Below are positions 1,449 through 33,773 of a DNA stretch of 35,277 bases, piece by piece. The translations under genes and the position numbers were made by a program. Location of the stretch: the IMG/VR virus record IMGVR_UViG_3300035698_000910, positions 1-35,277 of that record. One strand, written 5' to 3'. Origin of the DNA: a virus. The notes under the pieces are model-generated. The model ran no database searches. It saw only the letters and a list, made by a program, of their open reading frames with translations, and was not told the DNA's origin. The number at the start of each line of letters is the position of its first letter. Position 1 is the stretch's first letter.

Positions 1449-3493
1449 GGTTAGACAAAATCATGCTGGCCATGTATCCGACGACTGTGCGCAACAGGGA
1501 CACTCTCTGGTCATGTGACATAGAAGCGACTGGCCTCCTTGAGCATCTTAATGAACAAGGCGAAGACGCCAGACTCCATAACTTTGGGGCAAAGCAGGGC
1601 AAGACGGAGATTCTCTTCTCTGCAGCCCATAACAGCCTTGACCACAGGGCATGCCCAGACATCAGACCGCTCAGCGAATTGCAAGAGTGGCTCAGTGAGG
1701 GGCACTCTCTGATAATGCACAACGGTGTGGGCTATGATGGCGAAGCTCTGAAATTCTTTGGCTACGATGTTTCAAAGAACTACATAATAGATACACTGTA
1801 TCTTGCTTGGTACTTAGAACCTAGACGTGTACGTCATGGACTAGGAGGCTATGGTGAAGAATTTGGTGTACCGAAACCAGTAGTAATGGACTGGATAAAC
1901 GGCCCACAAGAAGAATACAACAGACGTGTAATGCAAGATTGTCGTATTCAAGAAAGATTGTGGACTAAGCTATGGGGTATGTTAAACAACATTTATGGTA
2001 ATGATATAGAGTCATGGAGACTTATAGATTACCTAATGATAAAAGCCAAACACCTAACTGTCGCTCAACGAACTCGTTGGAAGTTAGACATAGCGGGTGC
2101 TGAAGAATTATCCGAAGAATTACATATAGATAAGGACATTAGACATAAAGAGCTAACAGCTGTAATGCCTAAAGTGCCTGTCTATAAAGAAAAGAAAAGA
2201 TGTGCTAAGCCATTCAAAGGTAATGGGACTCTGTCTAGCCACGGAAGTAAGTGGGTAATGTTTTGCTTACAATATGGATTGGATTTTAATGACCTTGAAG
2301 AGTATAATTACCTGTCTGGAAGTGAAGATGGGAATCCGAATGCACACGGTCAAATAAAAAAATGGTTATTTAGCTTAGGCTGGCAACCAGAAACTTGGGT
2401 ATTTAAAACTGATTATGATGAAAACGGTAAACGAACTGAAAGAAAGATTCCGCAAATCAATGTCAAGAACTCAGGCGGTATGCTTGATCCTGATATCGAG
2501 CGTATGCTTGAAGATTACCCAGATCTCAAATATCTTAAAGGCCTTGGTATTGTTAATCATCGTATTTCCATTGTTGATGGTTGGCTTAGGGATCATATTG
2601 ATGGCTACCTTATTGCTGGATGTAGTGGATTAACTAACACACTGAGGCTTAAACACAGAGGTGTAGTAAATGTACCTTCTGATAGAGTATCTTATGGTGC
2701 AAGACTTAGAGCACTACTGATAGTTGATGAGTATTTCGTATTACTGGGAAGTGATTTAAGTTCTCTGGAAGATAGATGTAAACATCACTATCAAATACCA
2801 TTAGACCCAGCATATGTTCAAGAGCAATCAGCAGATGATTTCGACCCTCATCTATTGATAGCTACCTTGGCAGGCCTAGTAACAGAAGGTGAAGTGGTAG
2901 AATTCAAACTAGGTTTGGACGAAGATAAATTCCCTCTAGGGAAGATAACTGCTGCCCTGTTTAAACACATCAAGAAGGAAGTCAGACCGAAAGGCAAGGC
3001 TACTAACTACGGGTGTCAATACGGTGCTGGTGCTAAGGCTATTAGTCGTAGTGCTAAAGTGTCGTTCCAAGTTGCAGAGTTATTGCATCAGGCTTACTGG
3101 GAGGCAAATTGGAGTATAAAGGAAATTGCAGCTGCTACTGAAGTAGCAACGGCAAACGGTGAGAAATGGCAGAGGAATCCTGTTAACGGAATATGGTACT
3201 GGCTCAAGCATGAGAAAGATAGATTCTCTACTTTATGTCAAGGTACAGGTTCATTTGTTTTCGACATGTGGACTGAACAAGTGTTTCAAATATGTCAGGA
3301 ACGATGGGGCAAAGATCCTATGCTGACTGGACAATTTCATGACGAATTTATACTTAAATGTAAAGCCGAACATGAAGAACTCTGGACAGAGATAGTAATG
3401 ACAGCAATGTCAAGAACAAACGAAATATTAGGTATGCGTAGAGAGATGGGCTGTGATATTCAGTTCCACACAAACTATGCAGGAATACATTAA
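1445..3493 (+). CDS. Family A (T7-type) DNA polymerase with 3'-5' exonuclease domain
   Basis: The 682-residue protein replicates the phage genome. The N-terminal exonuclease domain shows Exo I DIEATG (D25, E27), Exo II HNGVGYD (D98) and Exo III YNRRVMQD (Y158, D165), all acidic ligands present, so proofreading should be active. The polymerase domain has motif A GSDLSSLEDR (D437), motif B RPKGKATNYGCQYG (R514, K518, Y522) and motif C HDE (D633, E634). Y522 is at the position of T7 Tyr526, which in T7 polymerase weakens discrimination against dideoxynucleotides. Length is close to T7 gp5 (704). The first roughly 100 codons look more GC-rich than the rest. No primase or helicase is in the window, so those probably lie elsewhere. 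Confidence 0.97.
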   Translation: MRLDKIMLAMYPTTVRNRDTLWSCDIEATGLLEHLNEQGEDARLHNFGAKQGKTEILFSAAHNSLDHRACPDIRPLSELQEWLSEGHSLIMHNGVGYDGEALKFFGYDVSKNYIIDTLYLAWYLEPRRVRHGLGGYGEEFGVPKPVVMDWINGPQEEYNRRVMQDCRIQERLWTKLWGMLNNIYGNDIESWRLIDYLMIKAKHLTVAQRTRWKLDIAGAEELSEELHIDKDIRHKELTAVMPKVPVYKEKKRCAKPFKGNGTLSSHGSKWVMFCLQYGLDFNDLEEYNYLSGSEDGNPNAHGQIKKWLFSLGWQPETWVFKTDYDENGKRTERKIPQINVKNSGGMLDPDIERMLEDYPDLKYLKGLGIVNHRISIVDGWLRDHIDGYLIAGCSGLTNTLRLKHRGVVNVPSDRVSYGARLRALLIVDEYFVLLGSDLSSLEDRCKHHYQIPLDPAYVQEQSADDFDPHLLIATLAGLVTEGEVVEFKLGLDEDKFPLGKITAALFKHIKKEVRPKGKATNYGCQYGAGAKAISRSAKVSFQVAELLHQAYWEANWSIKEIAAATEVATANGEKWQRNPVNGIWYWLKHEKDRFSTLCQGTGSFVFDMWTEQVFQICQERWGKDPMLTGQFHDEFILKCKAEHEELWTEIVMTAMSRTNEILGMRREMGCDIQFHTNYAGIH

Positions 3494-3557
3494 TCTTATA
3501 ATTACGTAAGAGAAACTCAAAAATTAATGGGCTAACAAGGCCCCAATGGAGAACAAC

Positions 3558-4367
3558 ATGTTTGCAAAAGCAACAAAGACAGGTAACGGTGGCGGCGGTG
3601 GCGTCGAGATGGTATCAACAATTCTAAGCCCAGGATCATACCCTGCTAGATTAGTACAAATTGTTGATCTAGGAATGCAACCGGGATCTACAATGTATCC
3701 TGAACCTAAACTTAAAATGGAGATGCGTTTTGAGTTATTAGATGAGTTCATGCACGACAAAGAAGGTAAAGAACTGGATAACAAACCTCGCTGGTTTAGT
3801 TACGAACTGACTTACAATGCAGATGGATATATGGGCGATCGCTCTAACATCTACAAAGTCTTCGATGCATTAGGTGGATTTGAAAAGCCATTGCCAGAAC
3901 TTGTTGGTACACCCTGTAATGTAGCTATTGCAAAAGGTCTCAAACAAGACGGCAAAACCGAAAAGAATAAGATTACTGGTGTGTCTGCCATGCGTGATAA
4001 GGATGCAGAGAAAGCTGTTGAGTTACAAAACCCAACTCTATATTTCTCTCTGATGACTCCCGACATGGAAGTGTGGAAGAAGTTATCTAGTAAAGGTCAG
4101 TACTCTCAACAAGCTAAAATTAAGGCTAGCTTAGAGTTACACCTTACACCATTAGCAGCGTTAATTGGAGCAGAAACTAGTGATGCGAAAGACGAAAGTG
4201 AGCCAAGCGGTGATGATGATACTGATGGAAAGACAGCAGATGATAAGTCAGCCGAAACCCCGACAGAAACTGAAACCCCAGAAGCTGAAAAGCCAGAAGC
4301 AGAAAGCAATGAAAGAGCTGTAAGTGAAGGCGGTAAAACAACAGATGAAGTAGATCCATTCGAGTAG
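3558..4367 (+). CDS. Probable single-stranded DNA-binding protein
   Basis: I take ATG 3558 because GGAGA (3548-3552) sits five bases upstream; an in-frame ATG at 3546 has no clear site of its own. The product is 269 residues. The N-terminus has a Gly run, followed by a beta-rich region (residues about 15-150) with the SPGSYPARLVQI strand typical of phage DNA-binding OB-fold-like proteins. The last about 70 residues are disordered and very acidic (Asp/Glu/Thr/Pro), ending DEVDPFE. An acidic tail with a terminal aromatic is how T7 gp2.5 and bacterial SSB recruit polymerase and other partners. Position between polymerase and nucleases fits. It could instead be an unrelated replication accessory protein. 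Confidence 0.6.
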   Translation: MFAKATKTGNGGGGGVEMVSTILSPGSYPARLVQIVDLGMQPGSTMYPEPKLKMEMRFELLDEFMHDKEGKELDNKPRWFSYELTYNADGYMGDRSNIYKVFDALGGFEKPLPELVGTPCNVAIAKGLKQDGKTEKNKITGVSAMRDKDAEKAVELQNPTLYFSLMTPDMEVWKKLSSKGQYSQQAKIKASLELHLTPLAALIGAETSDAKDESEPSGDDDTDGKTADDKSAETPTETETPEAEKPEAESNERAVSEGGKTTDEVDPFE

Positions 4368-4375
4368 GGTAAATT

Positions 4376-4939
4376 ATGATTTTAGCAAGAGAACTTCTGA
4401 AAGAACTACGTGCTAAGAACATTCCAGCTTGTGTTGCGGGCGGTTACGTCCGTGACATGGTCTTAGGCAGACCGCCTAAAGATATGGATGTTGTAGTATT
4501 TGGTGATCACATGGTGACAAAGAACATTGACTATATGGATGCGAGTAGTATCCTAGACAATGTTGTCCATCGAGTAGAGAATGGTGTATTACACTACGAA
4601 GACGGTGCGGATTATCCTGTCAATGTGATTGAACATTTATTCGCAGGGACATACAAAGGTATGAAAGTTGATATGATCTTCTACAAAGAGAGATACTTCT
4701 CAGGTGCTGCTGTAGTAGATTCCTTTGATATGAATATCAACCAAGGGTACATAACCATGAAAGATATGGTGGTACCTGATGTGACTACACTAAGCCTACA
4801 CAATCTTGCCAGATGTACTGAGCAAAGAATTGTGAAAGGTTTTAATATGATAATGGACCATTATCGTAAGAACCATGAAATGGAATTGCCAGGCGGTAGT
4901 CCAAATCCACCTTGGAGAACACCTAATGTCAAACCGTGA
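4376..4939 (+). CDS. Nucleotidyltransferase, poly(A) polymerase/CCA-adding head domain only
   Basis: The 187-residue protein has the class II Pol-beta-superfamily signature: AGGYVRDMVLG (G22, G23, R26, D27), KDMDVVV (D36, D38), and a third acidic residue in KVDMIF (D99). These coordinate two metals and position the incoming nucleotide in CCA-adding enzymes and poly(A) polymerases. Such enzymes usually exceed 350 residues and have C-terminal neck, body and tail domains that grip tRNA. Here the protein stops soon after the head domain, so substrate choice must differ or come from a partner. Its 3' end overlaps the exonuclease start. The substrate (tRNA 3' end, mRNA or a small nucleotide) is unknown. 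Confidence 0.8.
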   Translation: MILARELLKELRAKNIPACVAGGYVRDMVLGRPPKDMDVVVFGDHMVTKNIDYMDASSILDNVVHRVENGVLHYEDGADYPVNVIEHLFAGTYKGMKVDMIFYKERYFSGAAVVDSFDMNINQGYITMKDMVVPDVTTLSLHNLARCTEQRIVKGFNMIMDHYRKNHEMELPGGSPNPPWRTPNVKP

Positions 4940-5939
4940 AGCACCAGAAAGCTTTGAAACATTATTGATAGATATGGACTTACTAGTATTCTCTAGTTGT
5001 GCAGCTATTGAGTATGGCAAAGAGCCCAAAGATGTAAATTTCAACCAGATAGCAAATAACATCGACTCTCGTATTATGAACATAAGACGTAGACTGGGTG
5101 CTAAGAATGTTATTGGTCTGCTATCAGGTAAAAAGAATTACAGATTTGTAGTTCAGCCTGATTATAAAGCAAACAGAAAAGATGCATGGATTCCGTACAA
5201 CTTAGCAAATGCTAAAGCTTATGCTGAGAATCAATACGAGTGTATTCTGACTGATGGTTTGGAAGCAGATGATTGGTGTGGTATCTTAGGTGGTAGTGAT
5301 GAAGTTGTCACAGCGACTATAGATAAAGATATTCCAACAGTTAGTGGATGGCATTACAAATGGGAAACTCAGCACGCAGGTGAAAAGTTATTCCATGTGT
5401 CAGGCCAAGGCGATCTTGAATGTAAGATTAACGCTAAGAAGAAGAAGAAAATTGTCGGCAACGGTAATAGATTTTTCTGGTGGCAGCTGTTGACAGGTGA
5501 TCCTACAGATGGGATCATGGGTTGTGGTGCTACAGTAAGCAAGCAGTATAAGACTGGCAAGAAAGCTGGTCAACAATACTATAGCCGTGAAGGTGTCGGT
5601 GCTGTAGAGGCATACGAATTACTAGAAGGCGCTATAACTCCTGCTAGATGCTTGAACATCATAATCCAGCAGTATAAGAAGCAATTCGGAAAGCAATGGG
5701 AATACCAACTGCTAATGAATGGCCGCTGCTTGTGGATGACTCGAAAGATTGTAGATGAAAATGTTATAGAGCTATGGCACTGGTTGACATTGCTAGAGAC
5801 TGAAGCTGACATCAAAGAATTTATCGAAACCTCAGGCACTAAAGCTACTGTGGAAAAGGTAACAAATATGAGAATCCGCAGAATGGCTGATTCTTGGTTT
5901 AATATCCTTGAACAAAAGATAGTGAAAATGGAAGGCTAA
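4926..5939 (+). CDS. FEN-type 5'-3' exonuclease (T7 gp6-like role)
   Basis: I chose ATG 4926 because GGAGA ends seven bases upstream (4914-4918). The frame stays open further upstream but only inside the previous gene. The 337-residue product has the metal-binding acidic set of the FEN/5' nuclease family: LLIDMD (D16, D18), GLEADD (E113, D115, D116), TIDKD (D133, D135) and GDPTDGI (D192, D195), followed by a helix-hairpin-helix-like region. In T7, the matching enzyme removes RNA primers and degrades DNA from 5' ends for replication and recombination. It overlaps the nucleotidyltransferase gene by 14 bases and is two bases before the HNH gene. Confidence 0.9.
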   Translation: MSNREAPESFETLLIDMDLLVFSSCAAIEYGKEPKDVNFNQIANNIDSRIMNIRRRLGAKNVIGLLSGKKNYRFVVQPDYKANRKDAWIPYNLANAKAYAENQYECILTDGLEADDWCGILGGSDEVVTATIDKDIPTVSGWHYKWETQHAGEKLFHVSGQGDLECKINAKKKKKIVGNGNRFFWWQLLTGDPTDGIMGCGATVSKQYKTGKKAGQQYYSREGVGAVEAYELLEGAITPARCLNIIIQQYKKQFGKQWEYQLLMNGRCLWMTRKIVDENVIELWHWLTLLETEADIKEFIETSGTKATVEKVTNMRIRRMADSWFNILEQKIVKMEG

Positions 5940-6489: not shown

Positions 6490-6987
6490 ATGAACTTAGA
6501 AAACGTACTAAAAAGCGGTGGCGTAATGCGCTACCATGCAACACCTGATATCCCATTACAAAGTAATGCTGAACATCAGTGGCGTGTAGGAATATTACTC
6601 CAACACTTTTATCCAGTGTTAAATGAATATGTGATGTTTGCAGCATTAACACATGACTGTGCTGAGATGATGACTGGTGATACACCATCATTTGCTAAGC
6701 AACAAGAACCAGTGTTGAAAATGCTATTGGATAAGATGGAAAAAGAAGTGGAAGTGGAGTGGGGAATTTTAGCCAGTCTAAGTACCGCTGAAAAGAAAGC
6801 AATAAAGTATTGTGATGTAATAGAAGGCTTATTATATTGTCACAACGAAGTGATGAAGGGTAATAAACTAGCCTTACCAGTATTCGATAACTGGGTGAAC
6901 TATTATGAGTCACTCAAAGATGGAAGCTACGAAAGTCATAACCAATTCGTTAAGTATAAAGTTCAAGAGGTGAGAAATGTCCGCTAA
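6490..6987 (+). CDS. HD-domain phosphohydrolase, YfbR-like 5'-nucleotidase
   Basis: The 165-residue protein has the HD-superfamily metal ligands in order: AEHQWRV (H29), LTHDCAEMMTGD (H55, D56) and KYCDVIEG (D109). The length and the ExxTGD-type segment after HD fit YfbR-like deoxyribonucleoside 5'-monophosphatases. It has AGGAGA seven bases before ATG and sits among nucleotide metabolism genes. In phages such enzymes tune dNMP pools or remove specific nucleotides. The nucleotide preference cannot be read. Its 3' end overlaps the ligase start by 11 bases. Confidence 0.82.
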   Translation: MNLENVLKSGGVMRYHATPDIPLQSNAEHQWRVGILLQHFYPVLNEYVMFAALTHDCAEMMTGDTPSFAKQQEPVLKMLLDKMEKEVEVEWGILASLSTAEKKAIKYCDVIEGLLYCHNEVMKGNKLALPVFDNWVNYYESLKDGSYESHNQFVKYKVQEVRNVR

Positions 6988-8693: not shown

Positions 8694-10454
8694 ATGAGAA
8701 TTAGTTACGAAAGAGATTCATTAATCTCAGAGCAGGCGATGAAGCTGTTACAAGACTACTACATGCAACCAGAAGACAAAAGTCCTCAAGATGCGTTTGC
8801 TCGTACTGCTCGTTTCTTTGCTTCAGATGCCAAACACGCACAGAGAATTTATGATGCTGTAAGTAAGCAGTATTTCATGTTCGCAAGCCCGATACTATCA
8901 AATAGCAACGAAGGGAAAGGTTTACCTATCTCTTGTTTCTTGTCATATGTACCGGACACTGTGGAAGGTTTAATAGGCCACGAAGCGGAAACTAAATGGC
9001 TGTCAATATTTGGTGGTGGAGTAGGTGGACACTGGAGTTCTGTAAGAGCTGTGAGTGACAAATCACCTGGGCCAATACCATTTATGCACTCTATAGATGG
9101 GTCAATGACTGCGTTTAAGCAGGGCACAACTAGGAAGGGAGCTTACGCTGCCTACCTTGATGCTAGCCACCCTGATATTCAGGAATTCTTACAAATAAGA
9201 GTACCTACAGGTGGTGATATAAATCGTAAATGTCTGAACATACATAACGGTGTTAACTTTTCTGATGACTTCATGGAAGCAGTAATGCTTGATGATGAGT
9301 GGGATTTAATTTGCCCTTCGAAAGGGGCTGTGTTAGAGACTGTATCTGCTAGATCTATATGGGAAAGCTCAATGACTACGCGTCATCGTACTGGTGAACC
9401 GTATATGAACTTCATAGATACAGCCAATAGATACTTACACCCAGCTCAGAAAGCATTAGGCTTAAAGATTAATGGATCAAATCTGTGTAACGAAATTCAC
9501 TTAGTGACAAGCGAAGAGCGTACTGCTGTTTGTTGCTTATCTTCTTTGAATCTTGAGAAGTACGATGAGTGGAAAGATATTGGCTTAGTGGCTGATCTGG
9601 TGGAATTCTTAGATAATGTGTTAGATCACTTTATTGCCCGTGCTCCAGATGTTATTAGTAGAGCGAGATATGCAGCAATGAGGTCTCGTGATATAGGTAT
9701 TGGTGCAATGGGTTGGCATGGTCTTCTAATGAAGTCCTCTATCCCGTTTGAAAGCGAAGAGGCTATTGCCTTGACGGATACCATATTCTCTAACATCAAC
9801 AAGCAAGGTAAAGATGCTTCTAAAGCTCTAGCCTACTTGCGTGGAGCTTGTCCTGATGCAGTTGAGACTGGCTACGGTGATAGGAACCTACATATATTTG
9901 CAATAGCTCCGAATGCTAATAGCTCTATATTATGTAATGCAACAGCATCAATTGAGCCTATCAAGAGTAATGCTTATGCTCATAGAACTAGACATAATAC
10001 ACATCAGAATGTGAACCCTATACTAATGGATGTACTAAGAGACAAAGCGCCTATGGCTACTTTGACTATGCTTGGTATGACAGTAGAACAATGGGTGAAC
10101 AAACAGCTTGAAATGGTGGTTAGAGACGACGGTAGTGTAAAGACTCTTAGTTGTCTAAATGACCATGAAAAGGAAGTGTTCAGAACATTCCGTGAAATGA
10201 ATATGGTATGGGTAGTAAAACAAGCTGGTGTAAGGCAGAAGCATCTATGTCAGGGACAAAGTGTAAACTTAGATTTCCCTGCTGAGTGTGAGAAGTCTTA
10301 CTTCAATCACGTGCATTTGCTTGCATGGGAGCTTGGCTTGAAAGGACTTTACTATGTCCGTACTGGGTCAGTTGGTAAAGCTGATAAGGTATCAGACAAG
10401 ATTTTAAGAGAAGCCCTTGGTGACTCGGAGGACTGTTTGGCATGTCACAGCTAA
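8694..10454 (+). CDS. nrdA: Ribonucleotide reductase class Ia, large subunit
   Basis: The 586-residue protein reduces ribonucleotides to deoxyribonucleotides. The active site NLCNEI gives N263, C265 (thiyl radical) and E267. The substrate-reducing disulfide pair is C81 (LPISCFLS) and C280 or C281 (AVCCLSS). The C-terminus DCLACHS carries the swinging CxxC (C581, C584) that re-reduces the active site. E. coli NrdA has 761 residues with an N-terminal ATP cone. This protein starts close to the catalytic domain and has no room for one, so dATP feedback inhibition through the cone should be absent (inference). Start: ATG 8694 with AAAGG just upstream. The 3' end overlaps the split endonuclease gene by 13 bases. 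Confidence 0.96.
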   Translation: MRISYERDSLISEQAMKLLQDYYMQPEDKSPQDAFARTARFFASDAKHAQRIYDAVSKQYFMFASPILSNSNEGKGLPISCFLSYVPDTVEGLIGHEAETKWLSIFGGGVGGHWSSVRAVSDKSPGPIPFMHSIDGSMTAFKQGTTRKGAYAAYLDASHPDIQEFLQIRVPTGGDINRKCLNIHNGVNFSDDFMEAVMLDDEWDLICPSKGAVLETVSARSIWESSMTTRHRTGEPYMNFIDTANRYLHPAQKALGLKINGSNLCNEIHLVTSEERTAVCCLSSLNLEKYDEWKDIGLVADLVEFLDNVLDHFIARAPDVISRARYAAMRSRDIGIGAMGWHGLLMKSSIPFESEEAIALTDTIFSNINKQGKDASKALAYLRGACPDAVETGYGDRNLHIFAIAPNANSSILCNATASIEPIKSNAYAHRTRHNTHQNVNPILMDVLRDKAPMATLTMLGMTVEQWVNKQLEMVVRDDGSVKTLSCLNDHEKEVFRTFREMNMVWVVKQAGVRQKHLCQGQSVNLDFPAECEKSYFNHVHLLAWELGLKGLYYVRTGSVGKADKVSDKILREALGDSEDCLACHS

Positions 10455-10615: not shown

Positions 10616-10845
10616 GCATGATGCTAAAGCAAGAGTTTGCTTGTGTCCTATGTGAGGAAGACTTTGAAGAAAGTAGACACACACATATCGATCATTGTCA
10701 CGAAACTGATAGAGTCAGAGGAATCCTATGTCACTATTGTAATACAGCTTTAGGTCTTTTTAAAGAGAAACCTGAGTTAATGAAAAGAGCTGCAAGTTAC
10801 ATAGAGTTCTACAAGGAGAAAAAGCATGCCACAGTTAAAAAGTAA
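10612..10845 (+). CDS. Endonuclease VII-like HNH domain (C-terminal part of split gene)
   Basis: The protein, 77 residues from GTG 10612 (ATG 10618 and 10621 are alternatives), contains CVLCEED, THIDHCHETDRVRGILC and HYCNTALG. This is the endonuclease VII family pattern CxxC ... DHCH.T..VRG.LC..CN..LG, with the catalytic His in DHCH. T4 endonuclease VII resolves branched DNA; family members in phages are also site-specific or homing-like nucleases. The frame is open upstream of the GTG and encodes the family's linker (KYGVT), so this is probably the second half of one gene starting at 10442. The GTG overlaps the upstream stop (GTGA), so separate coupled translation is also possible. It overlaps nrdB by 20 bases. 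Confidence 0.8.
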   Translation: MSMMLKQEFACVLCEEDFEESRHTHIDHCHETDRVRGILCHYCNTALGLFKEKPELMKRAASYIEFYKEKKHATVKK

Positions 10846-11788
10846 GTTACTAGTACAAGCTGCTACATACAAGCCCTTCAATTATGAGTGGGCTGTTCAA
10901 GCCGCAATTGATCATGAAAAGATACATTGGCACGAAGAAGAAGTTGAGCTTGGCGATGATGTGGCTCAGTGGAAGGATGGAAGCCTGACTGATAGGGAGA
11001 AGAATTTCGTAACTCAAATATTGAAATTGTTCACTCAGACAGATGCTCAGGTGGCAGGAAACTATTGTGACCTATTCATCCCGACATTCAAGAACAACGA
11101 AGTACGCCAAATGTTATTGGCATTCGCTTCACGTGAAGGTATACATCAAAGAGCGTATGCATTACTTAATGATACATTAGGTTTGCCTGACTCTATATAC
11201 TCAGAATTTCTAGAATACGAAGCTATGGCTGGTAAGATGGAAATGATGCAGGATAATGATGTATCGACGTTAGAAGGTATTGGTAAAGCATTAGCTCAAA
11301 CAGTATGTAATGAAGGGATGAGCCTATTTAGTTCATTCGTGATGTTACTAAACTTCCAGCGCTTCGGTAAAATGAAGGGTATGTGTAAGATTGCTGAATG
11401 GTCACTACGAGATGAGACAGAGCATGTTGAGGGCATGGCAAAATTGTTTAAAACTTTTTGCAATGAGAATCCTCAAGTGTTGACTGACGAATTCAAACGT
11501 GGGATTTACCAAATGTACCGTGATGCTGTTGATCTGGAAGATAAATTTATCGACCTAGCTGCAGAGAAAGGTATGCCAGAAGGGTTAACTGTTGCTGAGA
11601 TGAAACAATACATTCGTTTCATAGCTAACAGGCGTCTAAACATGATCGGTCTTAAGGATAACTTTGAGAATGCTACGAACCCCTTCCCTTGGTTGGATTG
11701 GATTCTAGGCGAAGGTCACACTAATTTCTTTGAGCAGCGTGTAACAGATTATTCTGTTGGCGGACTTAAAGGTGAGTGGGTCTACTAA
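10826..11788 (+). CDS. nrdB: Ribonucleotide reductase class Ia, small subunit
   Basis: The 320-residue protein houses the diiron-tyrosyl radical cofactor used by the large subunit. Ligands line up as D73 (QTDAQ), E104 and H107 (SREGIHQRAY), E163 (CNEGMS), and E197 with H200 (RDETEH). Tyr111, four residues after H107, is in the position of the radical Tyr122 of E. coli NrdB, so this is the tyrosyl-radical type. The C-terminus is short and ends KGEWVY; an aromatic tail is what docks on NrdA. AAGGAGA precedes ATG 10826. It is separated from nrdA only by the endonuclease VII-like gene. Confidence 0.96.
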   Translation: MPQLKSKLLVQAATYKPFNYEWAVQAAIDHEKIHWHEEEVELGDDVAQWKDGSLTDREKNFVTQILKLFTQTDAQVAGNYCDLFIPTFKNNEVRQMLLAFASREGIHQRAYALLNDTLGLPDSIYSEFLEYEAMAGKMEMMQDNDVSTLEGIGKALAQTVCNEGMSLFSSFVMLLNFQRFGKMKGMCKIAEWSLRDETEHVEGMAKLFKTFCNENPQVLTDEFKRGIYQMYRDAVDLEDKFIDLAAEKGMPEGLTVAEMKQYIRFIANRRLNMIGLKDNFENATNPFPWLDWILGEGHTNFFEQRVTDYSVGGLKGEWVY

Positions 11789-19796: not shown

Positions 19797-21215
19797 ATGA
19801 CTCTTCCTATCTCTGAGGCAGTAAATGTTACTATTTCTTTATCACCTACCGCTGTTGCGTTAGCTGGTTTTGGCAACTTATTAATGTTGACTGATGAAAC
19901 TTCAGCCAATATCGAGACACATGAGCGTTACCGCTTATATTCAAGCCTTGCCTCTGTCTTAGTTGACTGGGCTCCTACAACTGAAGTATATAAAGCTGCT
20001 GAAGCCTATTACTCTCAAAGTGCTCAAGAATTCTCTGTAGGGCTAGTGTCAAGCGCTGCCTCATCTGGTGAATTACGTGGCGGGCCTATCGCTACATTAG
20101 GTACATTGCAAGCTATTACTGCTGGCGCTATGACCATATCTGTAGATGGTACACCACAGAACTTAACAGCAATTGATTTCTCAGCTGCTGCTGATTTAGA
20201 TGCGGTTGCCGCAGCATTGACTGCGAAGTTGACTGCTGCTACATGTACCTATGACGCAGTTAGCCTGACGTTCAAGGTAGCATCTGATGCAACTGGTGTA
20301 GCGTCTGCTGTTGCTTATCCTAGTAATGATGTGACTCTTGTCGCTGAAGGCATGGGTCTGATTATCGGTGCTAAGATCATTGCTGGTCGTAAAGCTGAAA
20401 CTGCTTTAGAGGGTATTGCTGAAGTCGCTAAGGTGACTGACTCTTACTACGGTATTGTAACTCATAAGAAATGGCGTGATAATGGTTCAGCTACTGATCT
20501 AGCTGGTTATGCTGAAGGTGCATCCAAGATGTTCTTCAACACTTCTAATGATCCTCGTGCTTTAACTACTGATGAAAGTCACGTAATTGCACTTATGAAA
20601 GCTGCTACGTACGACCGTACTTTATCTAACTATAGCTCAAGCCCTGCTGAATATCCTGGTGCTGCTGTAGCTGGACGTGGCTTCATTGTTAACTTCGAAG
20701 GTACTAATACTACTATTACTTTGAACCTTAAGCAACTTGGTGGTGTTACTGCTGAAGACTTAAGCTCAAACGAGAAGGCTAACCTTGAGTCTCATAATGG
20801 TAATGCTGTTGCTATTATCGCTGATGTTGGAGTTTACTCTGATTCTCGTATGGCTAGTGCACAATGGTTTGATACTATTCACGGTACCGATTGGTTGAAG
20901 AACCGTATCGAGACTGATGTGTTTAACGTGTTGTTTCAATCTGCTACTAAGATCCCTTACACTGATGCTGGTGTTACTATCTTACGTCAGGCAGTTGAAG
21001 CTGGTTTACGTCAAGGCGTAACCAATGGTCTAATCGCTCCTGGCGAAACTCCTTCAGGCACATTCTTGCCTCTTGGTTATTCCATTAAAGCAGTTCCGGT
21101 TTCTCAGTCTAGCGCAGCTAACAAGAGCAATCGTATTTATAGTGGTCTAAGCTTTGAAGCAGTAGGTAGTGGAGCAATTCACAAAGCAGTAGTAACTGGC
21201 GTGTTCAACGGTTAA
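19797..21215 (+). CDS. Contractile tail sheath protein (DUF3383 family)
   Basis: The 472-residue protein opens MTLPISEAVNVTISLSPTA, the usual start of DUF3383 sheath proteins, followed by FGNLLMLTDE and an inserted beta domain (residues about 95-200). The C-terminal half has the sheath core pattern NGNAVAIIADVGVYSDSRMA, WLKNRIETDVFNVLFQS, DAGVTILRQAVEAGLRQGV and IYSGLSFEAVGSGAIHKAVV. It contracts around the tube during infection. AAGGAA precedes ATG. Its presence defines the virion as contractile-tailed. Confidence 0.94.
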   Translation: MTLPISEAVNVTISLSPTAVALAGFGNLLMLTDETSANIETHERYRLYSSLASVLVDWAPTTEVYKAAEAYYSQSAQEFSVGLVSSAASSGELRGGPIATLGTLQAITAGAMTISVDGTPQNLTAIDFSAAADLDAVAAALTAKLTAATCTYDAVSLTFKVASDATGVASAVAYPSNDVTLVAEGMGLIIGAKIIAGRKAETALEGIAEVAKVTDSYYGIVTHKKWRDNGSATDLAGYAEGASKMFFNTSNDPRALTTDESHVIALMKAATYDRTLSNYSSSPAEYPGAAVAGRGFIVNFEGTNTTITLNLKQLGGVTAEDLSSNEKANLESHNGNAVAIIADVGVYSDSRMASAQWFDTIHGTDWLKNRIETDVFNVLFQSATKIPYTDAGVTILRQAVEAGLRQGVTNGLIAPGETPSGTFLPLGYSIKAVPVSQSSAANKSNRIYSGLSFEAVGSGAIHKAVVTGVFNG

Positions 21216-21226
21216 GGAATAAGTAA

Positions 21227-21682
21227 ATGAAACAGTATAGTTTTTATAATGTCGATCTATTGATTGATGGAGTAACCATCGATGGTTACTCAGATAGCGC
21301 TGCTATCATCACAGCATCTCGTTCTGCGCTTCAACACGCTAAAGTAATGGATGCTCGCGGTAAGATGGTTGCCGTAACTTCTGCAGATAAATCTGGTACT
21401 ATTACCTTTGATATCCTACAGACTTCTGATAGTAACGCATTCATGCAAGTGCTTGCACTCACAAGCCATGAGTCTGGTACTTCAGGCGGTTCAGATACTT
21501 TCTTACCTATCCAAGCTCTTATCAATGATAAGATGGGTACTACAGTTGTAACTGGTGTTAATGGTTTCATCACCATGCAACCTGGTGTTGTCCGTGGTAC
21601 AGGTGTTGCAACAAACACTTGGGTAATGGAATTCGAACAACTTTGGTTGGTTCGTGGTACTTATAGTACTGTTGGTCTTTAA
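21227..21682 (+). CDS. Tail tube protein (DUF3277 family)
   Basis: The 151-residue beta-rich protein begins QYSFYNVDLLIDGVTIDGYS and contains ADKSGTITFDILQTSDSN and a C-terminal WVMEFEQLWLVRGTYST, matching DUF3277 tube proteins that follow DUF3383 sheaths. It polymerises into the inner tube through which DNA and any tape-measure protein pass. AAGGAATAAGTAA precedes ATG. Codon use resembles the capsid and sheath genes, as expected for a high-copy protein. Confidence 0.9.
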   Translation: MKQYSFYNVDLLIDGVTIDGYSDSAAIITASRSALQHAKVMDARGKMVAVTSADKSGTITFDILQTSDSNAFMQVLALTSHESGTSGGSDTFLPIQALINDKMGTTVVTGVNGFITMQPGVVRGTGVATNTWVMEFEQLWLVRGTYSTVGL

Positions 21683-21695
21683 TAGGAGAAGTTAG

Positions 21696-22076
21696 ATGGC
21701 ATGCAAAGATATGAATGGGGTTGTCGATGATAAGCCCATATATGTTAAGCAATGGTCAGCTACAAGAAGCTTAGAGAACCTTAGCAAATCACTGGAGACG
21801 TTTGGGGCTAAACTAGCCCCCTTCGTCGAAGGTAATTTCCTCATGGGTGACATAATAGCTTTGCTAAATAGCGACCCTGCAAAGACAGTTCCTCTAATTA
21901 AGGAGTTTGTTTCTTGCGCTCGGCTTGACGGGCAGGAAGTTCAGGTACCCACCTTTGATAAGTTCTACAACGGAGAATTGATGCTTGTGTTTAAAGTATT
22001 CTCATTCGTGTGTGGAGTTCAGTATAAAGATTTTTTCGAGCAAGGGCAAAGTCTTCTAGACAACCACCCAGAGTAG
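21696..22076 (+). CDS. Tail assembly chaperone, short form (gpG-like)
   Basis: The 126-residue zero-frame product of the chaperone locus, between the tube and tape measure genes. It is mainly helical, with a Cys-containing C-terminal part (FSFVCGVQYKDFFEQGQSLL). AGGAGA lies seven bases before ATG. In lambda and many tailed phages, the short form and a frameshifted long form together hold the tape measure protein while tail tube polymerises. The slip site lies 13 codons before the stop. Confidence 0.85.
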   Translation: MACKDMNGVVDDKPIYVKQWSATRSLENLSKSLETFGAKLAPFVEGNFLMGDIIALLNSDPAKTVPLIKEFVSCARLDGQEVQVPTFDKFYNGELMLVFKVFSFVCGVQYKDFFEQGQSLLDNHPE

Positions 22077-22306
22077 AATCTGAAGATGAAGATGAAGAGT
22101 TTGATCCTCTAGAGTTCAAACCAAAACCTTTAGGCGAACTATTTCCAAGTATCAATTTTTATTTATGCAGACCAATTATTGAAGAACCCAGATTGTGTGA
22201 TATGAGCCAACTTCAAGATGGGACTTATAGTATATATGATCTATTTATGTTCCATGAGTTGTTAGACTTGGGGGCACATTTGAAACAACGTCACAGCAAG
22301 GGTTAG
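21696..22306 (+). CDS. Tail assembly chaperone, -1 frameshift fusion (gpGT-like)
   Basis: If the ribosome slips -1 on T TTT TTC at 22031-22037, the product reads on past the short form's stop to the TAG at 22304-22306. It gives about 203 residues: 114 from the first frame and 89 from the second. The extension has a very acidic linker (VESEDEDEEFDPLEF), then LGELFPSINFYLCRPII and a helical end LFMFHELLDLGAHLKQRHSK. It has no start of its own near the beginning, and its stop is followed by the tape measure ATG. This is the conserved G/GT arrangement. Confidence 0.85.
22031..22037 (+). promoter_or_regulatory. Slippery heptamer T TTT TTC for -1 frameshift
   Basis: In the frame of the short chaperone, codons read GAT TTT TTC GAG. 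The heptamer fits X XXY YYZ with both Phe tRNAs able to re-pair after slipping one base. The downstream sequence in the new frame is open for about 90 codons. No pseudoknot was worked out. Confidence 0.85.
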
Positions 22307-22308
22307 AT

Positions 22309-25300
22309 ATGAAAAACAAAGGTACTTTAAGTTTAAATAGAGAGACTAAAGAAAAGAAAGTTGAACCAAAGAAGGCAAGACTGCCCGATTGGATTGACAA
22401 ACCGTCTCGAGGATTTAGCAGCAAAGATGCTGTTAAGCCTGAGAAGAATACAGAAAGAGATCTGACCGGAGGTGATCGTTCAAGATTCTTCGGTGTAGAT
22501 GAAGATGGAGAAGAACTGAACCCACTGGGTTGGCAGGGTAACTCCATCATAGATACTATAGCAGCTACAACAACTCCTGAGCAAGTGGCCGCTGGCCGTA
22601 TATCTGCTGGAGGGGGGCAAGCAGCTAATGCCTTTATATCTAATGCTAACGAAGCTAAGAAGCTATTGGCATCAGGTATCAATCCAATGTCACTGAAGGA
22701 TAGTTATATACCATCTGAGAAGTTGGCATACATGTCAGCTCACAGTGGATTGGACATAGGTAAAGTATCTAGAGAAGTATCTGCTGGTATGCATGCAGAT
22801 AGTCACGAGATGGACTCTTATGACACAGTGGGACTTAGGCCAAAAGAGCCTGAAGATAAGTACGAGAACGACCACAATAGGAATATGCGTAATGCAGCTT
22901 TTGCGGGTGTAGATGAGAAGCAAGTCCACACCCCTGAAGAACAGATGTTAGCTACCTTTGGCGCTCTGACAATATCAAAAGATAGAGGTAAACAACAAGT
23001 AGACGCTCCTGACTCGGTGTCAATAGGTACTGAAGAACATGCTATACGTAAGTTCGACCTCAAGGTGCAAAGATCTACTTCAGCACTAGAGAAGATTGCT
23101 AATCTGTATCTACCTAAGGCTCTAAGAGGTAGGACTAATCTGGAGAAATCGGATAAGTATAAGAGTGGCACGCCTGAACAAAACCAAGGTAGATTACTTC
23201 GTAACGAAATAATAACTGCACTCGGTAAGATTCTACCAACCACTATTGCAGATACAGGTAAACTAATGGCTGAGAAGCCTGATGGTAAAACACCTTGGTC
23301 ACAAGCATTACCCTCACCAGCACGATTGGGCAAGTTGGTATCTAAGTCTACTGCCAGTCTGTTGGAAGATCCTGTTATAAACAAAGAGAACAGACCTACA
23401 GTAAATGCTAATATAAAGACTATTAAGAGTCTGTTCAACCCGAGTAATGAGGGTGGATTATCCAGAACCAGAAACTCAGATGTGTATGCTGCTAAGTATA
23501 TGTCAGACGAGTTAGCTGCAAGTGGTATGGATGAAAGGCATACTGTACTAAGTCAAGATGCTGATCGTGATCAAGGACATGAATTCAGGGTAACAACTGA
23601 TATACGTGAAGCCATGAGTGAAGGCATGCAGATGCTTGGTATGAATGCTACGGATCTTAAAGACCCTGAGCAGGCAAAGTTACTGAAGACAACCATAGAT
23701 AAAGGTTTGGACAGTGATGCTGCTATGTATGCTAGTGCTAAGGTTACATCTAAGACAGATGCAACCGAGGACATCGATAGAGAGATATCGAAGCAGTTAT
23801 ATAAACAGGAATCAGAAAATAGGTCTACCCTAGCTGCAAGAGAGCAAGAACAGATAATGACTCAGTCAGCTATAAATGCTGAGATGGCTACTAAGCCAGA
23901 AGTGATTAGTCGCAATAGGAAAATAACTGGTTTAAATTCGGATACTATAGACACGAGATTTAATATTGGTAAATCCTACAGCGAGAAGATAACACCTGAA
24001 ACTTCTATGTTCAAGCCTAAGCAAGGTAAAATAGTTTTAGACGAGGCATCTCAGGACAGACGGGATCAGGAGGCTGAGAAGAAAGCCAAGAAGAGACCTA
24101 AGGTAGAGCCTCCAGTCATAGGCGAGCAGATCCATAAGACTCAGAAAAAGAAAGCTGAGCCTGAGCAAGTGGGAACATCTGGTAATACTCCTGAAGAGGC
24201 TCTTGCTAAGTTCAAGAAAGATAATCCCAACATCAGTGGATTTGTAAGTGATGGTAAGGATGAGGTTGGTAAGATAGATGAAGTACAGCATGCTGTATGG
24301 CAGAAAGCCCGTAGAGGCAAACTGACGTCATCTCAAGTCCCTAGTATGGACGGCACAGGTAAACCTGGAGACTCTGATAGGACTATTGCTGGTGTAATAA
24401 AGCAAGGAATAGGTGCTGATACTGGTAAAGAGTTTAAAGGGAATGCTTGGACAGAATCTGGTAACATACTGGAACCCAGAGCTTTAGATTGGTATAAGCG
24501 TACGAAAGATTCTACCACATTTGAAACTGGTATGATCAAGAATAGTGCTCTACCTGGCCAAGCAACTACTCCAGATGCGATTGCAAAAGATGGGAAACGT
24601 ATTGTAGAAGTGAAAAGTAGAGAGTCATTGATTGACCCTACCAACTATCATTCTTCAGAAGCTAAAGCACTGCGTAAATATAATATGCAGATGCAACATC
24701 AGATGCATGTATCTGGCCTTAAAGAAGCTGACTTAGTTCAAGTAAGACGTGGTATCAATACTAACGAACTGTTTGAAGAAGGTGGGCCTGACTCCTCCAA
24801 CTTCCGAGCTGATACCTTCAAGCGTGACGATGAAATAATTAATCGCATGGCTCCGGTATGGGATACGGTAGGTAAAAGCGCGGATAAGATAAGTAAGCTC
24901 AAGCCTAAAGAGCAAGAAAATCTAGCTAAGGCTGTAGAAGAAGGTAACATAGCTTCATTCGAGAAACTTGCTAAGAAGCATGGTCTGACTGAAGTGAGTG
25001 GCTCTGTAGCAGCTGGAATGAAGGCTCCTAAGAAGGGTGGCTCTGGTGGAGGTGGTAATGATATCATCGATACTTGGGGTAGCGCGACTGGGCCAACAAC
25101 AGCTGGCAGTCTTATTAAGTCAGGGTTAGCACGTTCTAGGGGAGGGAGAGCAATAAATGCTGCCACTGCTGTAGCAGGCGCTGCTTGGAAAGGCGCTAGA
25201 GATTTAAACAATGCTAACTTAAAGCTTGGTTTTAGCGCTGCCTCAGCTGGTATGGATACAAGAACCTTTGTAGAACAAAGAGGGGATGTTGCATCCTCAC

Positions 25301-26103
25301 AATACCTATCAGCAGGGCAAGCTGCTCAGGACATTAATTCACTTGGGTTAGCTAAAGGTGGTCTAGGTCTAGGATTTACTGAAGGTGCTGAAAGAATAGT
25401 TGAGGGCTCACGAGGCTTATTGAACTTTCAAGACATAGCAAGTTACGACCCTAAGAATGGCGGGGCTGCTAAACTGCTACAGAAGCTCCAAGACGAAGGG
25501 GCAGCTAGGAACTACTCCAAGGCCCAGATGTCAGCTATAGCTCAACAGACTGGTCTGAACTCTGCGGTAGCTTCTGAGGAGCAAGAGCAAGGGCAGTTAG
25601 AGTTGAATGACGCTTGGGTCAATATGGACAAGAACATTGCTGAACTAACTATATCTGCGGGAACTACGATGGGTCCTGATATAGCTACGATAGGTACCAT
25701 ACTAAACAATGGTCTAGGAGAATTTGGTCTAGACTATAGGAAAGGTGAAACCCCTGAGAACGCTGGTCAAGCAAGTATGAAGCGTATGCAAGAAAAGGGA
25801 TTTGTTGGTGGTGTTTGGGATGAACTCAAAGACATACCCAGAGCTGCAGCCTTCAGTATGGGCTTATCAGATAACGGTAATCGTTATTCTGGCTTGATGA
25901 TAGATGGTGATGAGCCTGAATATAGTCCTGAAGAGTACAAGAAGATGCAAGATCCTACCTATATGGTAAATCAATCGGGCGTAAATAGTACTCAGAAAGT
26001 GACTATAGAAGTCAAAGGTGAGATAGGTGTTGAGGGAAGGTTGGCTCAGAAAATAGCAGTTATGCCTGAAGACGAATCAGATGGCAGACTAAATAAAAAA
26101 TAA
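22309..26103 (+). CDS. Tape measure protein with an embedded PD-(D/E)XK nuclease domain
   Basis: The 1264-residue protein is by far the largest here and follows the chaperone pair, so it is the tape measure protein. Residues 1-650 are charged and mostly helical or disordered, with few hydrophobic stretches. Residues about 655-815 carry a YqaJ/lambda-exonuclease-like nuclease: W664 and RRGKLTSSQ (668-676), GNILEPRALDWY with E722, TTPDAIA with D756, IVEVKSR with E767 and K769, and YNMQMQHQMHVSG (791-803). A GGSGGGG linker (910-916) leads to an Ala/Gly-rich helical C-terminus (RAINAATAVAGAAWKG) that ends in a beta segment VTIEVKGEIGVEGRL, typical of tape measure ends. No lysozyme or peptidase motif is seen. 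No convincing membrane span is visible. Confidence 0.85.
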   Translation: MKNKGTLSLNRETKEKKVEPKKARLPDWIDKPSRGFSSKDAVKPEKNTERDLTGGDRSRFFGVDEDGEELNPLGWQGNSIIDTIAATTTPEQVAAGRISAGGGQAANAFISNANEAKKLLASGINPMSLKDSYIPSEKLAYMSAHSGLDIGKVSREVSAGMHADSHEMDSYDTVGLRPKEPEDKYENDHNRNMRNAAFAGVDEKQVHTPEEQMLATFGALTISKDRGKQQVDAPDSVSIGTEEHAIRKFDLKVQRSTSALEKIANLYLPKALRGRTNLEKSDKYKSGTPEQNQGRLLRNEIITALGKILPTTIADTGKLMAEKPDGKTPWSQALPSPARLGKLVSKSTASLLEDPVINKENRPTVNANIKTIKSLFNPSNEGGLSRTRNSDVYAAKYMSDELAASGMDERHTVLSQDADRDQGHEFRVTTDIREAMSEGMQMLGMNATDLKDPEQAKLLKTTIDKGLDSDAAMYASAKVTSKTDATEDIDREISKQLYKQESENRSTLAAREQEQIMTQSAINAEMATKPEVISRNRKITGLNSDTIDTRFNIGKSYSEKITPETSMFKPKQGKIVLDEASQDRRDQEAEKKAKKRPKVEPPVIGEQIHKTQKKKAEPEQVGTSGNTPEEALAKFKKDNPNISGFVSDGKDEVGKIDEVQHAVWQKARRGKLTSSQVPSMDGTGKPGDSDRTIAGVIKQGIGADTGKEFKGNAWTESGNILEPRALDWYKRTKDSTTFETGMIKNSALPGQATTPDAIAKDGKRIVEVKSRESLIDPTNYHSSEAKALRKYNMQMQHQMHVSGLKEADLVQVRRGINTNELFEEGGPDSSNFRADTFKRDDEIINRMAPVWDTVGKSADKISKLKPKEQENLAKAVEEGNIASFEKLAKKHGLTEVSGSVAAGMKAPKKGGSGGGGNDIIDTWGSATGPTTAGSLIKSGLARSRGGRAINAATAVAGAAWKGARDLNNANLKLGFSAASAGMDTRTFVEQRGDVASSQYLSAGQAAQDINSLGLAKGGLGLGFTEGAERIVEGSRGLLNFQDIASYDPKNGGAAKLLQKLQDEGAARNYSKAQMSAIAQQTGLNSAVASEEQEQGQLELNDAWVNMDKNIAELTISAGTTMGPDIATIGTILNNGLGEFGLDYRKGETPENAGQASMKRMQEKGFVGGVWDELKDIPRAAAFSMGLSDNGNRYSGLMIDGDEPEYSPEEYKKMQDPTYMVNQSGVNSTQKVTIEVKGEIGVEGRLAQKIAVMPEDESDGRLNKK
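24280..24753 (+). other. YqaJ-like PD-(D/E)XK nuclease domain inside the tape measure gene
   Basis: This is the DNA for residues about 658-815 of the tape measure protein. All expected catalytic positions of the lambda-exonuclease/YqaJ fold are present and spaced normally: early Arg/Ser motif (RRGKLTSS), Glu722 in G-N-I-L-E-P-R-A, Asp756 in TPDA, E767-V-K769, and a Gln-rich helix YNMQMQHQM. The reading frame is continuous into and out of the domain. In known enzymes of this fold these residues bind Mg2+ and cut DNA, usually as a 5'-3' exonuclease toroid. The domain call is made by eye from the motifs. Confidence 0.82.
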
Positions 26104-26112
26104 GAGGAATTT

Positions 26113-27165
26113 ATGTATAAGCGTTTTATAAGACTTGAAGCGACTGACTTCGAAACTGGTGATGCTATATTCACTACCGAAGAGCATAGAGTATCTTTCG
26201 AATTGGATATTGGTCTGACTCAAGGTATTGCAAGAGGCAAGGTAACAATATATAATTTAGCACCCGATGAATCTAAGAAGCTAACTCGAGGTGACCTGAA
26301 ACCAGGTAGCTCGGGTAAGGCTGATAGTAACAAAGAGCTAAAGAAGGTTAGGATAAGATTATACACAGGTTACGTGGATGAGATTAGAGATGAAGGATTA
26401 GATCCTCAACTTATACTAGAGGGGTTTGTAATGAGCGCCACTGTGTTGAAGAGGATACCTGAAAACTTAACCTTCCTATATGTCATTGCCTTCGGGAGTA
26501 ACTTACTTATTAATAAGTTTGAAGCTTTCGATACTCCAGGAAAAGACTCTGAAGATCCTAAGATGACGTTGAGACAAGTCATAACAAAAATATGTGTGGG
26601 TGCTGGTTACCTAGAAGGTGCAATAGACTTCAAGTCTGTACCCGACGTATTAATGGATCAAGAGTTGATAGGTAAATCTTTCAACAATCCTGATAAGGGT
26701 ATGTTTAAAGCACTGAATGAGTTGGGTGAAATTTATACGTTCACTTGGGGTGTAAGAGCTAACGGTGTAGGTATATATCCGCTGTTGAAAGATAGTGCTA
26801 TAGACTCTACAGAGTATAACTACCTTCAGGAGAACGGGGAAAGGCGTAAGATAAATCCAGTTAGGGTTAAAGGACAACCTATAGCTGGTATATCCACTCT
26901 AGAAATAGAGCATGTGCTTGATTCCTCTTTGTTTCCAGGAGTCGTATTGGATGTTAATGAGTTAGAAGATATAATTGACTATACTCATTTAGATAGATCA
27001 ATATTTTTCTCTGATGATGTTGCACTATATGCAGCCCGAAAATTCTATATGATAAAAAGGGTAGTACATAGGGGTGACACCCATGGAGCTAATTGGACTT
27101 CGACGTTAGCGTGCGGGCTACCTTCGTCAGGTATAACAGGAAATGAGGAGATAGGCGATGGCTAA
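26113..27165 (+). CDS. Baseplate hub protein (gp27-like)
   Basis: The 350-residue protein starts with a beta domain containing LTQGIARGKVTIYNLAPDES, the pattern at the beginning of many hub proteins (RVTIYNL), followed by a second barrel with ILEGFVMSATVLKRIPENLT and LRQVITKICVGAGYLEG. It ends with FYMIKRVVHRGDTHGANWTS, also common in hub proteins of this module. It should form the trimeric or hexameric platform between the tube end and the spike. AGAGGAA lies six bases before ATG. It overlaps the next gene by eight bases. Confidence 0.78.
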   Translation: MYKRFIRLEATDFETGDAIFTTEEHRVSFELDIGLTQGIARGKVTIYNLAPDESKKLTRGDLKPGSSGKADSNKELKKVRIRLYTGYVDEIRDEGLDPQLILEGFVMSATVLKRIPENLTFLYVIAFGSNLLINKFEAFDTPGKDSEDPKMTLRQVITKICVGAGYLEGAIDFKSVPDVLMDQELIGKSFNNPDKGMFKALNELGEIYTFTWGVRANGVGIYPLLKDSAIDSTEYNYLQENGERRKINPVRVKGQPIAGISTLEIEHVLDSSLFPGVVLDVNELEDIIDYTHLDRSIFFSDDVALYAARKFYMIKRVVHRGDTHGANWTSTLACGLPSSGITGNEEIGDG

Positions 27166-32435: not shown

Positions 32436-33773
32436 ATGACAATTAAATTATCAGGATTAAGTGGCGGTGGTAGCGGCGAGATAGGTGATGTAATACTTAC
32501 CGAAAGGACATTGCAGGAGAACGGTAATAGATTATTACCTTTGGATGGCAGTAAGCTTGATGAGGGGACTTACCCCATACTGGCAGCCAACTTTGAGACC
32601 GCCAAGAGAGTAGACCCTGAGTTATCATTTGGATTTGATGGATATTCTAACCATAGAGGTATGGCTGTAAATGCTGCTGGTACTATCGGTTGGTCAATGG
32701 AAACAGGTAATGGGCCAAACGACGTATTTAAGATAACGTTTGCGGAACAGAGGAGGGAAGTTGTATATACAGCCACAGCAGGATCACAAGTAGCTGGACC
32801 TTCCATATGCTGCAGTGACGATGGTACTAAGATATATGGATTGGTAATTACCAGCAATGGTGGTGTATATGTAATAAGGTCTGTCAATAGTGGTGTGAGC
32901 TGGAATGAAGTATTTATACATAGCAATGGTGGCACTGTAACAACACAATCAATTTCAGCCAGCTCTCAATTCGCTAGAATAGAGTGTGATTCAATTGGGG
33001 ATAACGTAGTTGTGTATTCAGGTGCGGCAAATGATTACGATTTTACAGATGTTAGGAGGTCTGTTGATAGCGGTGCAAACTTTGCTCAAGCAGCCTCTAC
33101 TAAAGCATTAGCAAACCCAGAGCAAACAGGCCACACAGTTATAAGTAGAGATTTGAGTACTATTGTTACTTCTCTTAATAATGAGAGATTTTGGATATCA
33201 AGGGATGACCAAGTATTTCAAGATAGGGATAGTTCATATTTCGATCCAAATACAGGTCTGACGCCTGGGTCAACAGGTACCCAATCCTTTGCTATAAACA
33301 ATGACGGCTCTAGAATATTATCTTGGAACATGAGTGATACTGAAGGTACTACTAAAGTATTCTACTCTGATGACGATGGACTAAGCTGGACATTAGAATT
33401 AATCCAAATGGATAAACTCAATCTAAACTACAATGTCCCTACGATGCATATCGACCCTGACGACGTAAATATATGGTATCTGATAACCGCTGGCGTATTA
33501 CGGAAAGGTACTATAATACTTTGGAGGTACAACCTATTGACTGGGGTGTTAGAACAACTAGGTGTAACCTATAATGGTAATCAGAATGCTATTGGGACCC
33601 AAGCAACTAGGTATGGTTCGGTAATAAGAAAGACAGGAACCACTGTAGTAATAGCCCTAGCAGACCCAGTATCACTGGGGGGATTTGCGGTACTTGTAAC
33701 TGAAGATGGTAAATTCTTAACTGAATCAGATGATGATGGATTACCATACAAAATAATTGCAGACCCTGCTTAG
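32436..33773 (+). CDS. Receptor-binding tail protein with Asp-box beta-propeller (sialidase-like)
   Basis: The 445-residue protein begins with a Gly-rich hinge (MTIKLSGLSGGGSGEIGD), then NRLLPLDGSKLDEGTYPIL, similar to the tail collar pattern. Residues about 70-445 contain at least three Asp-box motifs S-x-(D/N)-x-G-x-x-(W/F): SVNSGVSW (149-156), SVDSGANF (209-216) and SDDDGLSW (311-318), along with repeated SDDGTKIYG- and NDGSRIL-type blade strands. Asp boxes mark beta-propeller blades in sialidases and many carbohydrate-binding propellers. I see no complete sialidase Arg triad, so binding is more likely than cleavage. A second, related gene lies downstream at 34248. Confidence 0.78.
   Translation: MTIKLSGLSGGGSGEIGDVILTERTLQENGNRLLPLDGSKLDEGTYPILAANFETAKRVDPELSFGFDGYSNHRGMAVNAAGTIGWSMETGNGPNDVFKITFAEQRREVVYTATAGSQVAGPSICCSDDGTKIYGLVITSNGGVYVIRSVNSGVSWNEVFIHSNGGTVTTQSISASSQFARIECDSIGDNVVVYSGAANDYDFTDVRRSVDSGANFAQAASTKALANPEQTGHTVISRDLSTIVTSLNNERFWISRDDQVFQDRDSSYFDPNTGLTPGSTGTQSFAINNDGSRILSWNMSDTEGTTKVFYSDDDGLSWTLELIQMDKLNLNYNVPTMHIDPDDVNIWYLITAGVLRKGTIILWRYNLLTGVLEQLGVTYNGNQNAIGTQATRYGSVIRKTGTTVVIALADPVSLGGFAVLVTEDGKFLTESDDDGLPYKIIADPA

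Follow-up and report, generated by a model that had tools for sequence, protein, structure and literature searches.

A lambda-exonuclease-like nuclease domain embedded in the tape measure protein of Chaseviridae-type phages

Tape measure proteins (TMPs) of tailed phages are regarded as rulers and membrane pores, and cell-wall enzymes are their usual passengers. An earlier note on a viral contig (IMG/VR record IMGVR_UViG_3300035698_000910; 35,277 nucleotides, all of which were analysed and are called the window here) proposed that a TMP gene of this phage carries a nuclease. Two questions are raised by the locus, namely whether a genuine nuclease domain is fused to a genuine TMP, and what an enzyme acting on DNA might do as part of a phage tail.

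The tape measure gene and its nuclease domain

As the earlier note had described, a single frame runs uninterrupted through positions 24280-24753, where the nuclease had been placed. The coordinates of this gene, its parts and its neighbours are collected in Table 1. PHROG matches in the window give the order sheath, tube, chaperone, TMP and hub, which puts the gene at the tape measure position, and its homologue in Escherichia phage 4HA13 is annotated as a tape measure protein. A slippery heptamer is located where an open -1 frame overlaps the end of the chaperone gene. A programmed -1 frameshift probably extends the tail chaperone up to the start of the TMP, to judge from these letters, in the G/GT arrangement of lambda; the slippery site and the extension frame thus mark the downstream gene independently as a tape measure. 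Small ORFs occur at the position matching the -1 frame in several relatives. A hydropathy scan of the window TMP revealed no clear hydrophobic membrane segment (top 19-residue hydropathy 0.91); such segments are frequent in tape measures but do not define all of them.

Table 1. Features of the tape measure locus, in positions of the window
Feature	Position	Strand	Basis
Tail sheath	19797..21215	+	phrog_205, E=7e-110
Probable tail tube protein	21227..21682	+	phrog_280 'virion structural protein'; gene at the same place named tail tube in 4HA13
Tail assembly chaperone, G-like product	21696..22076	+	phrog_11820
Open -1 frame, putative GT-like chaperone extension	22028..22306	+	Stops two bases short of the TMP start codon
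Slippery heptamer T TTT TTC	22031..22037	+	Phase correct for -1 frameshifting
Tape measure protein gene	22309..26103	+	Single ATG frame, 1264 aa; gene order; annotated 4HA13 homologue
Lambda-exonuclease/YqaJ-type nuclease domain, residues ~658-866	24280..24906	+	Profile, AF2 model, structure matches
Codon R668, counterpart of lambda exonuclease R28	24310..24312	+	Invariant in 11 rows
Codon E722, counterpart of lambda exonuclease E85	24472..24474	+	Alignment, invariance
Codon D756, counterpart of lambda exonuclease D119	24574..24576	+	Alignment, invariance
Codons E767-V-K769, counterparts of lambda exonuclease E129 and K131	24607..24615	+	Alignment, invariance
Gly/Ser-rich linker GGSGGGG (910-916)	25036..25056	+	Gly-rich run at about the corresponding position in 9/10 proteins compared
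C-terminal core (about 917-1114)	25057..25650	+	Homologous between two subfamilies, hhalign prob 97.7, E=1.4e-12
Baseplate hub	26113..27165	+	phrog_196, E=5e-23

The identity of the domain is supported by several kinds of comparison. Residues 664-804 match the Pfam family YqaJ (PF09588) with E=1.7e-13 (51.5 bits, cut-off 22), and among PHROGs phrog_149, 'exonuclease', is matched over residues 660-1113 (E=2.8e-98); the RecE-like phrog_434 is matched too. A profile of 12 relatives retrieved LHK-Exo (3syy; E=2e-25) and lambda exonuclease (1avq; E=8e-10) from the PDB. The AlphaFold2 model of residues 640-880 (mean pLDDT 85.2, pTM 0.84) adopts the lambda-exonuclease fold, with LHK-Exo, 3k93 and lambda exonuclease as its top Foldseek matches in the PDB; VIA-align gave Z 17.9 for lambda exonuclease (6m9k; rmsd 3.4, 200 aligned) and Z 17.6 for LHK-Exo (3syy). 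The fold that the earlier note had read from motif order was thereby borne out. The start that it had assigned to the domain also holds, but its end at 24753 falls short, since the LHK-Exo alignment extends to about residue 866, that is, to about 24906.

The motifs themselves lie where they had been reported, including the RRGKLTSS region (668-675) with the invariant R668, E722 in GNILEPRA, D756 in TTPDAIA, the E767-V-K769 triplet, the YNMQMQHQM segment with the helix motif Q794/Q796/M799, and the linker. R668 stands at +4 from an invariant Trp, matching the lambda exonuclease alignment. The catalytic residues of lambda exonuclease are E85, D119, E129 and K131, and R28 is the Arg of its 5'-phosphate pocket. 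Enzymes of this type form toroidal trimers and digest DNA in the 5'-3' direction starting at duplex ends. Profile, fold and conservation together strongly support the assignment of the domain to the lambda-exonuclease/YqaJ-type PD-(D/E)XK nucleases, with the catalytic set intact. The gene is a Chaseviridae-type TMP gene that carries a complete lambda-exonuclease-like domain.

A separately translated nuclease was considered. In the window TMP, the stretch around residues 540-672 holds no internal start preceded by a good ribosome-binding site; the sole candidates among codons 540-671, ATG 567 and GTG 621, both have weak ribosome-binding matches and were rejected. It follows that the nuclease would be produced only within the full tape measure protein.

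Conservation and origin of the fusion

PF09588 was found once per genome, always in the TMP gene, in all 17 records searched, which represent 16 distinct Chaseviridae-type genomes; the match exceeds the curated cut-off in 16 of the 17. Those TMP relatives whose family label was read belong to Chaseviridae, while the positions of two marks of this family, the T7-like RNA polymerase and the long terminal repeats, fall outside the 35 kb contig. Relatives of the Nefertitivirinae type come from phages of Aeromonas, Shewanella and Vibrio, and those of the Cleopatravirinae type, reached via Erwinia phage Y2, from phages of Escherichia, Erwinia, Pantoea, Proteus and Pectobacterium. Environmental relatives share 44-59% identity within the domain. 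The presence of the fusion throughout the Chaseviridae genomes tested indicates a family-wide feature rather than an oddity of a single contig. No prophage with a similar tape measure was detected in scans of genome contigs, which are sensitive to close relatives only. One BFVD entry, A0A6G5Y7G0, comprises 1230 aa.

Could the fusion be an artefact of assembly or annotation, in which frames were joined or a gene was mis-called? The TMP gene is indeed interrupted by frameshifts in two records, pAh6-C and Spp001. Nevertheless, the window and all other relatives with complete genes, which come from many laboratories and from metagenomes, show the fusion without a break, and these relatives refute the explanation, whose probability we put close to nil. 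The split gene occupies 1501-4634 in pAh6-C and 1702-5162 in Spp001 (coordinates of the compared stretches); the frameshifts fall at different places in the two and may reflect sequencing error or a real loss.

In an alignment of 12 rows taken from both subfamilies, the columns without any change are W664, R668, G718, E722, G741, D756, E767, K769, Q794, Q796, M799 and G879, and those within the domain are mainly nuclease motifs. The proposed catalytic residues E722, D756, E767 and K769, whose conservation in homologues the earlier note had made a test of its claim, are invariant in 11-12 rows. In two fairly close pairs of Aeromonas phages the domain is 89-90% identical, against 67-73% for the N- and C-terminal parts. 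Values of dN/dS are 0.046 for the domain, 0.10 for the N part and 0.19 for the C part, rough figures from the single pair in which every part could be measured, with synonymous sites near saturation. The compared sequences indicate that the domain is the slowest-evolving part of the TMP in both close pairs and that its active site is under selection.

These data bear on a non-catalytic use, in which the domain binds a DNA end or shapes the tail without cutting. Such a use would suit a domain that sits inside a structural protein, and a tail lumen of about 4 nm seems too small for the usual enzyme trimer. It is nevertheless quite improbable: all four residues named above are kept in both subfamilies, the chance of their falling among the near-invariant columns being about 4e-5, and the measured pairs show stronger constraint on the domain than on the rest of the protein.

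The two subfamilies differ in the rest of the protein. No homology is detectable between their N-terminal TMP parts, whereas the C-terminal core is shared. A first tree of the domain, with long-branch rows included, rejected a single clade (p-AU 0.006); two independent captures of the domain were considered on this ground, and the support was gone once the long-branch rows were removed (p 0.43). The domain may have been captured once or twice. The best match of the Y2 domain outside Chaseviridae is a stand-alone gene of Vibrio phage L1. More generally, where the domain has close relatives outside this family, these are recombination genes that stand alone and frequently neighbour annealing proteins or helicases. 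The Y2 protein, gp76 (39951-43670), combines two enzymes on one tape measure, the YqaJ-type nuclease at about 462-600 and, at 1086-1160, a lytic transglycosylase of the SLT type; its YqaJ domain was missed by the whole-protein Pfam scan and found with the domain alone and by genome search. An SLT domain was present in one of the five TMPs scanned, the Cleopatravirinae protein of Y2, and a Pfam scan of the window TMP found no lytic transglycosylase.

Probable carriage in the virion and possible roles at genome entry

In purified virions of 4HA13 the TMP homologue was detected by mass spectrometry and ranked second after the major capsid protein among the abundant proteins (PMC9699118). Altogether, 15 proteins were identified there at ≥50% coverage. 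Through this homologue, the TMP is supported as a virion component. The size of the protein was compared with that of Felix O1, which has a 113 nm tail and a TMP of 742 aa (0.152 nm per residue), and in whose genome a search found no YqaJ domain. With a tail of 116.5 nm and a TMP of 1204 aa in 4HA13, TMP length is proportional to tail length only if about 430 of the 1204 residues have no part in measuring, which is roughly the nuclease plus the SLT-type domain of Cleopatravirinae (SLT being seen in Y2). This comparison fits a nuclease that rides on the ruler as a passenger, although it is not proof.

The tail tube of myophages has an internal diameter of about 4 nm, and the tape measure probably helps to form a conduit through the inner membrane (PMC9022992). 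In lambda, injection brings the tape measure gpH into association with inner-membrane proteins (PMC13190303). A Chaseviridae genome is linear and ends in direct terminal repeats of about 3 kb (PMC12842549). The contig itself lacks the genome ends and the early region.

With this background, our tentative first choice, held with somewhat less than even confidence, is that the packaged, TMP-tethered 5'-3' exonuclease enters with the genome and trims the phage's own linear ends, and perhaps others. Several extended copies of the TMP would lie in the tail tube, and since a folded lambda-exonuclease trimer would be too big for its lumen, the domain would have to travel unfolded or in single file. 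Upon tail contraction the tape measure would exit first and reach the inner membrane, and on the cytoplasmic side of that membrane the nuclease domain may fold or refold and, as a double-strand exonuclease, attack free DNA ends at the site of entry. The most likely substrate, deduced from the terminal repeats, would be the phage's own termini. Resection within the repeats would expose complementary 3' tails by which the genome could circularise or recombine, and the resected ends would be poor substrates for RecBCD. Entry of the TMP into the cytoplasm and a nuclease role there are inferred steps, and the TMP's apparent want of a transmembrane helix counts against such entry.

Searches for the ERF and RecT families, the only annealing families searched, gave no match in 8 genomes, and the layout of stand-alone recombination exonucleases, with an annealing gene as neighbour, is not seen here, the domain being fused into the tape measure gene. 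In the end-trimming scheme, the strand-annealing partner would be a single-strand-binding protein rather than RecT/Erf. A protein encoded at 3546-4367 of the window (phrog_862/6599) has an OB-like predicted core and an acidic tail ending in DPFE, and a protein of this kind is conserved in each of the 10 Chaseviridae-type genomes tested. The structure model has low confidence (pLDDT 54.8), and the best match, PrgE at Z 7.6, is only suggestive. The product is likely a single-strand-binding protein, and it could serve as the annealing partner of the nuclease.

The window phage also encodes a separate exonuclease (phrog_107), a counterpoint to end trimming by the TMP. Moreover, unassembled TMP in the infected cell could act instead of delivered protein. 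The latter leads to a different explanation, in which the pool of TMP before assembly works on concatemers and recombination intermediates as a late recombination enzyme, and carriage in the virion is a by-product. This would agree with the stand-alone recombination genes that form the outside relatives and with genomes that hold no second YqaJ domain. We consider it unlikely, as the nuclease would be made only within the tape measure, the late timing fits packaging better than recombination, and a separate exonuclease is available.

It is likewise improbable, in our judgement, that the delivered nuclease is aimed at host DNA at breaks, at plasmids or at the DNA of other phages, for nucleotide supply or exclusion. 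That explanation draws on the same domain and virion evidence as end trimming, and the phage invests in nucleotide metabolism with a ribonucleotide reductase pair. Yet the enzyme requires a free end, of which an intact host chromosome offers few; a handful of copies per virion would contribute little to bulk degradation, and discrimination between self and non-self is not evident in the sequence.

The sequence is equally compatible with trimming of the phage's own ends, with delivery against host or rival DNA and with late recombination; among these readings, trimming keeps our preference. Its most far-reaching form is that a whole lytic phage family injects an exonuclease built into the TMP as the first enzyme on the incoming genome, which resects the phage's own terminal repeats at the entry site, circularises the DNA and hides the ends from RecBCD. 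We regard this form as rather doubtful; if true, the processing of genome ends by a tail component would be a new step of infection. With a conserved nuclease in its TMP, the tail would take an active part in what becomes of the genome on entry. Such a nuclease would suggest a testable explanation for the survival of these linear genomes in the face of end-directed host nucleases and for their circularisation, and would demonstrate the carriage of an enzyme through a tube of about 4 nm as part of the ruler.

Relation to known systems

The domain shares with lambda exonuclease/YqaJ enzymes (PF09588; 3syy, 1avq) a common fold, the E-D-ExK set, the Arg of the 5'-phosphate pocket and the Q-x-Q helix motif. 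Whereas enzymes of the lambda Exo type are encoded by stand-alone genes of ~200-350 aa products beside an annealing protein, the window nuclease is embedded in a tail protein of 1264 aa. TMPs with embedded cell-wall hydrolases, such as the SLT domain of Y2 gp76, likewise carry an enzyme as a tape measure module; those hydrolases attack peptidoglycan, whereas the Chaseviridae nuclease would, by its family, attack DNA, and Y2 has both. The injection-system effectors Tme and Sle1 similarly rely on a TMP scaffold that loads and ejects a functional domain, but they are cargo of bacterial nanomachines for which no nuclease domain is mentioned (PMC13277306), while the window protein is the tape measure of a lytic phage itself. 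SNIPE, too, is a nuclease that works during injection at the contact between tape measure and inner membrane; it is, however, a GIY-YIG enzyme of host defence found in association with the tape measure (PMC13190303), whereas here the phage itself would bring the nuclease.

The earlier note knew of no described system of this kind. This stands for the literature in so far as no paper describing a nuclease in a tape measure protein was found in open-access full text, a coverage that excludes the original phiEcoM-GJ1 and Y2 papers, and the fusion is not mentioned in the Chaseviridae profile (PMC12842549) or in a review section. It does not stand for databases. Pfam and PHROGs already detect the domain, and copies are labelled 'YqaJ viral recombinase domain-containing protein' in UniProt (pAh6-C) and 'exonuclease' in RefSeq (ZPAH14). 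Over roughly a hundred phage records the gene is named inconsistently, as hypothetical, tail fiber, exonuclease, endonuclease, tail tube initiator or tape measure. Both the enzyme family and the carrier are known, and their combination appears to be undescribed and fixed across a phage family.

Several other genes of the window were noted. A 445-aa protein without a PHROG match is encoded downstream of the baseplate genes (32436-33773). The large and small subunits of ribonucleotide reductase are encoded at 8694-10454 and 10826-11788, and these genes are not annotated in the compared parts of the Y2 and 4HA13 records. Between the polymerase and ligase genes lie a small protein with a weak match to a poly(A)-polymerase head (4376-4939) and a YfbR-like 5'-deoxynucleotidase with an HD domain (6490-6987).
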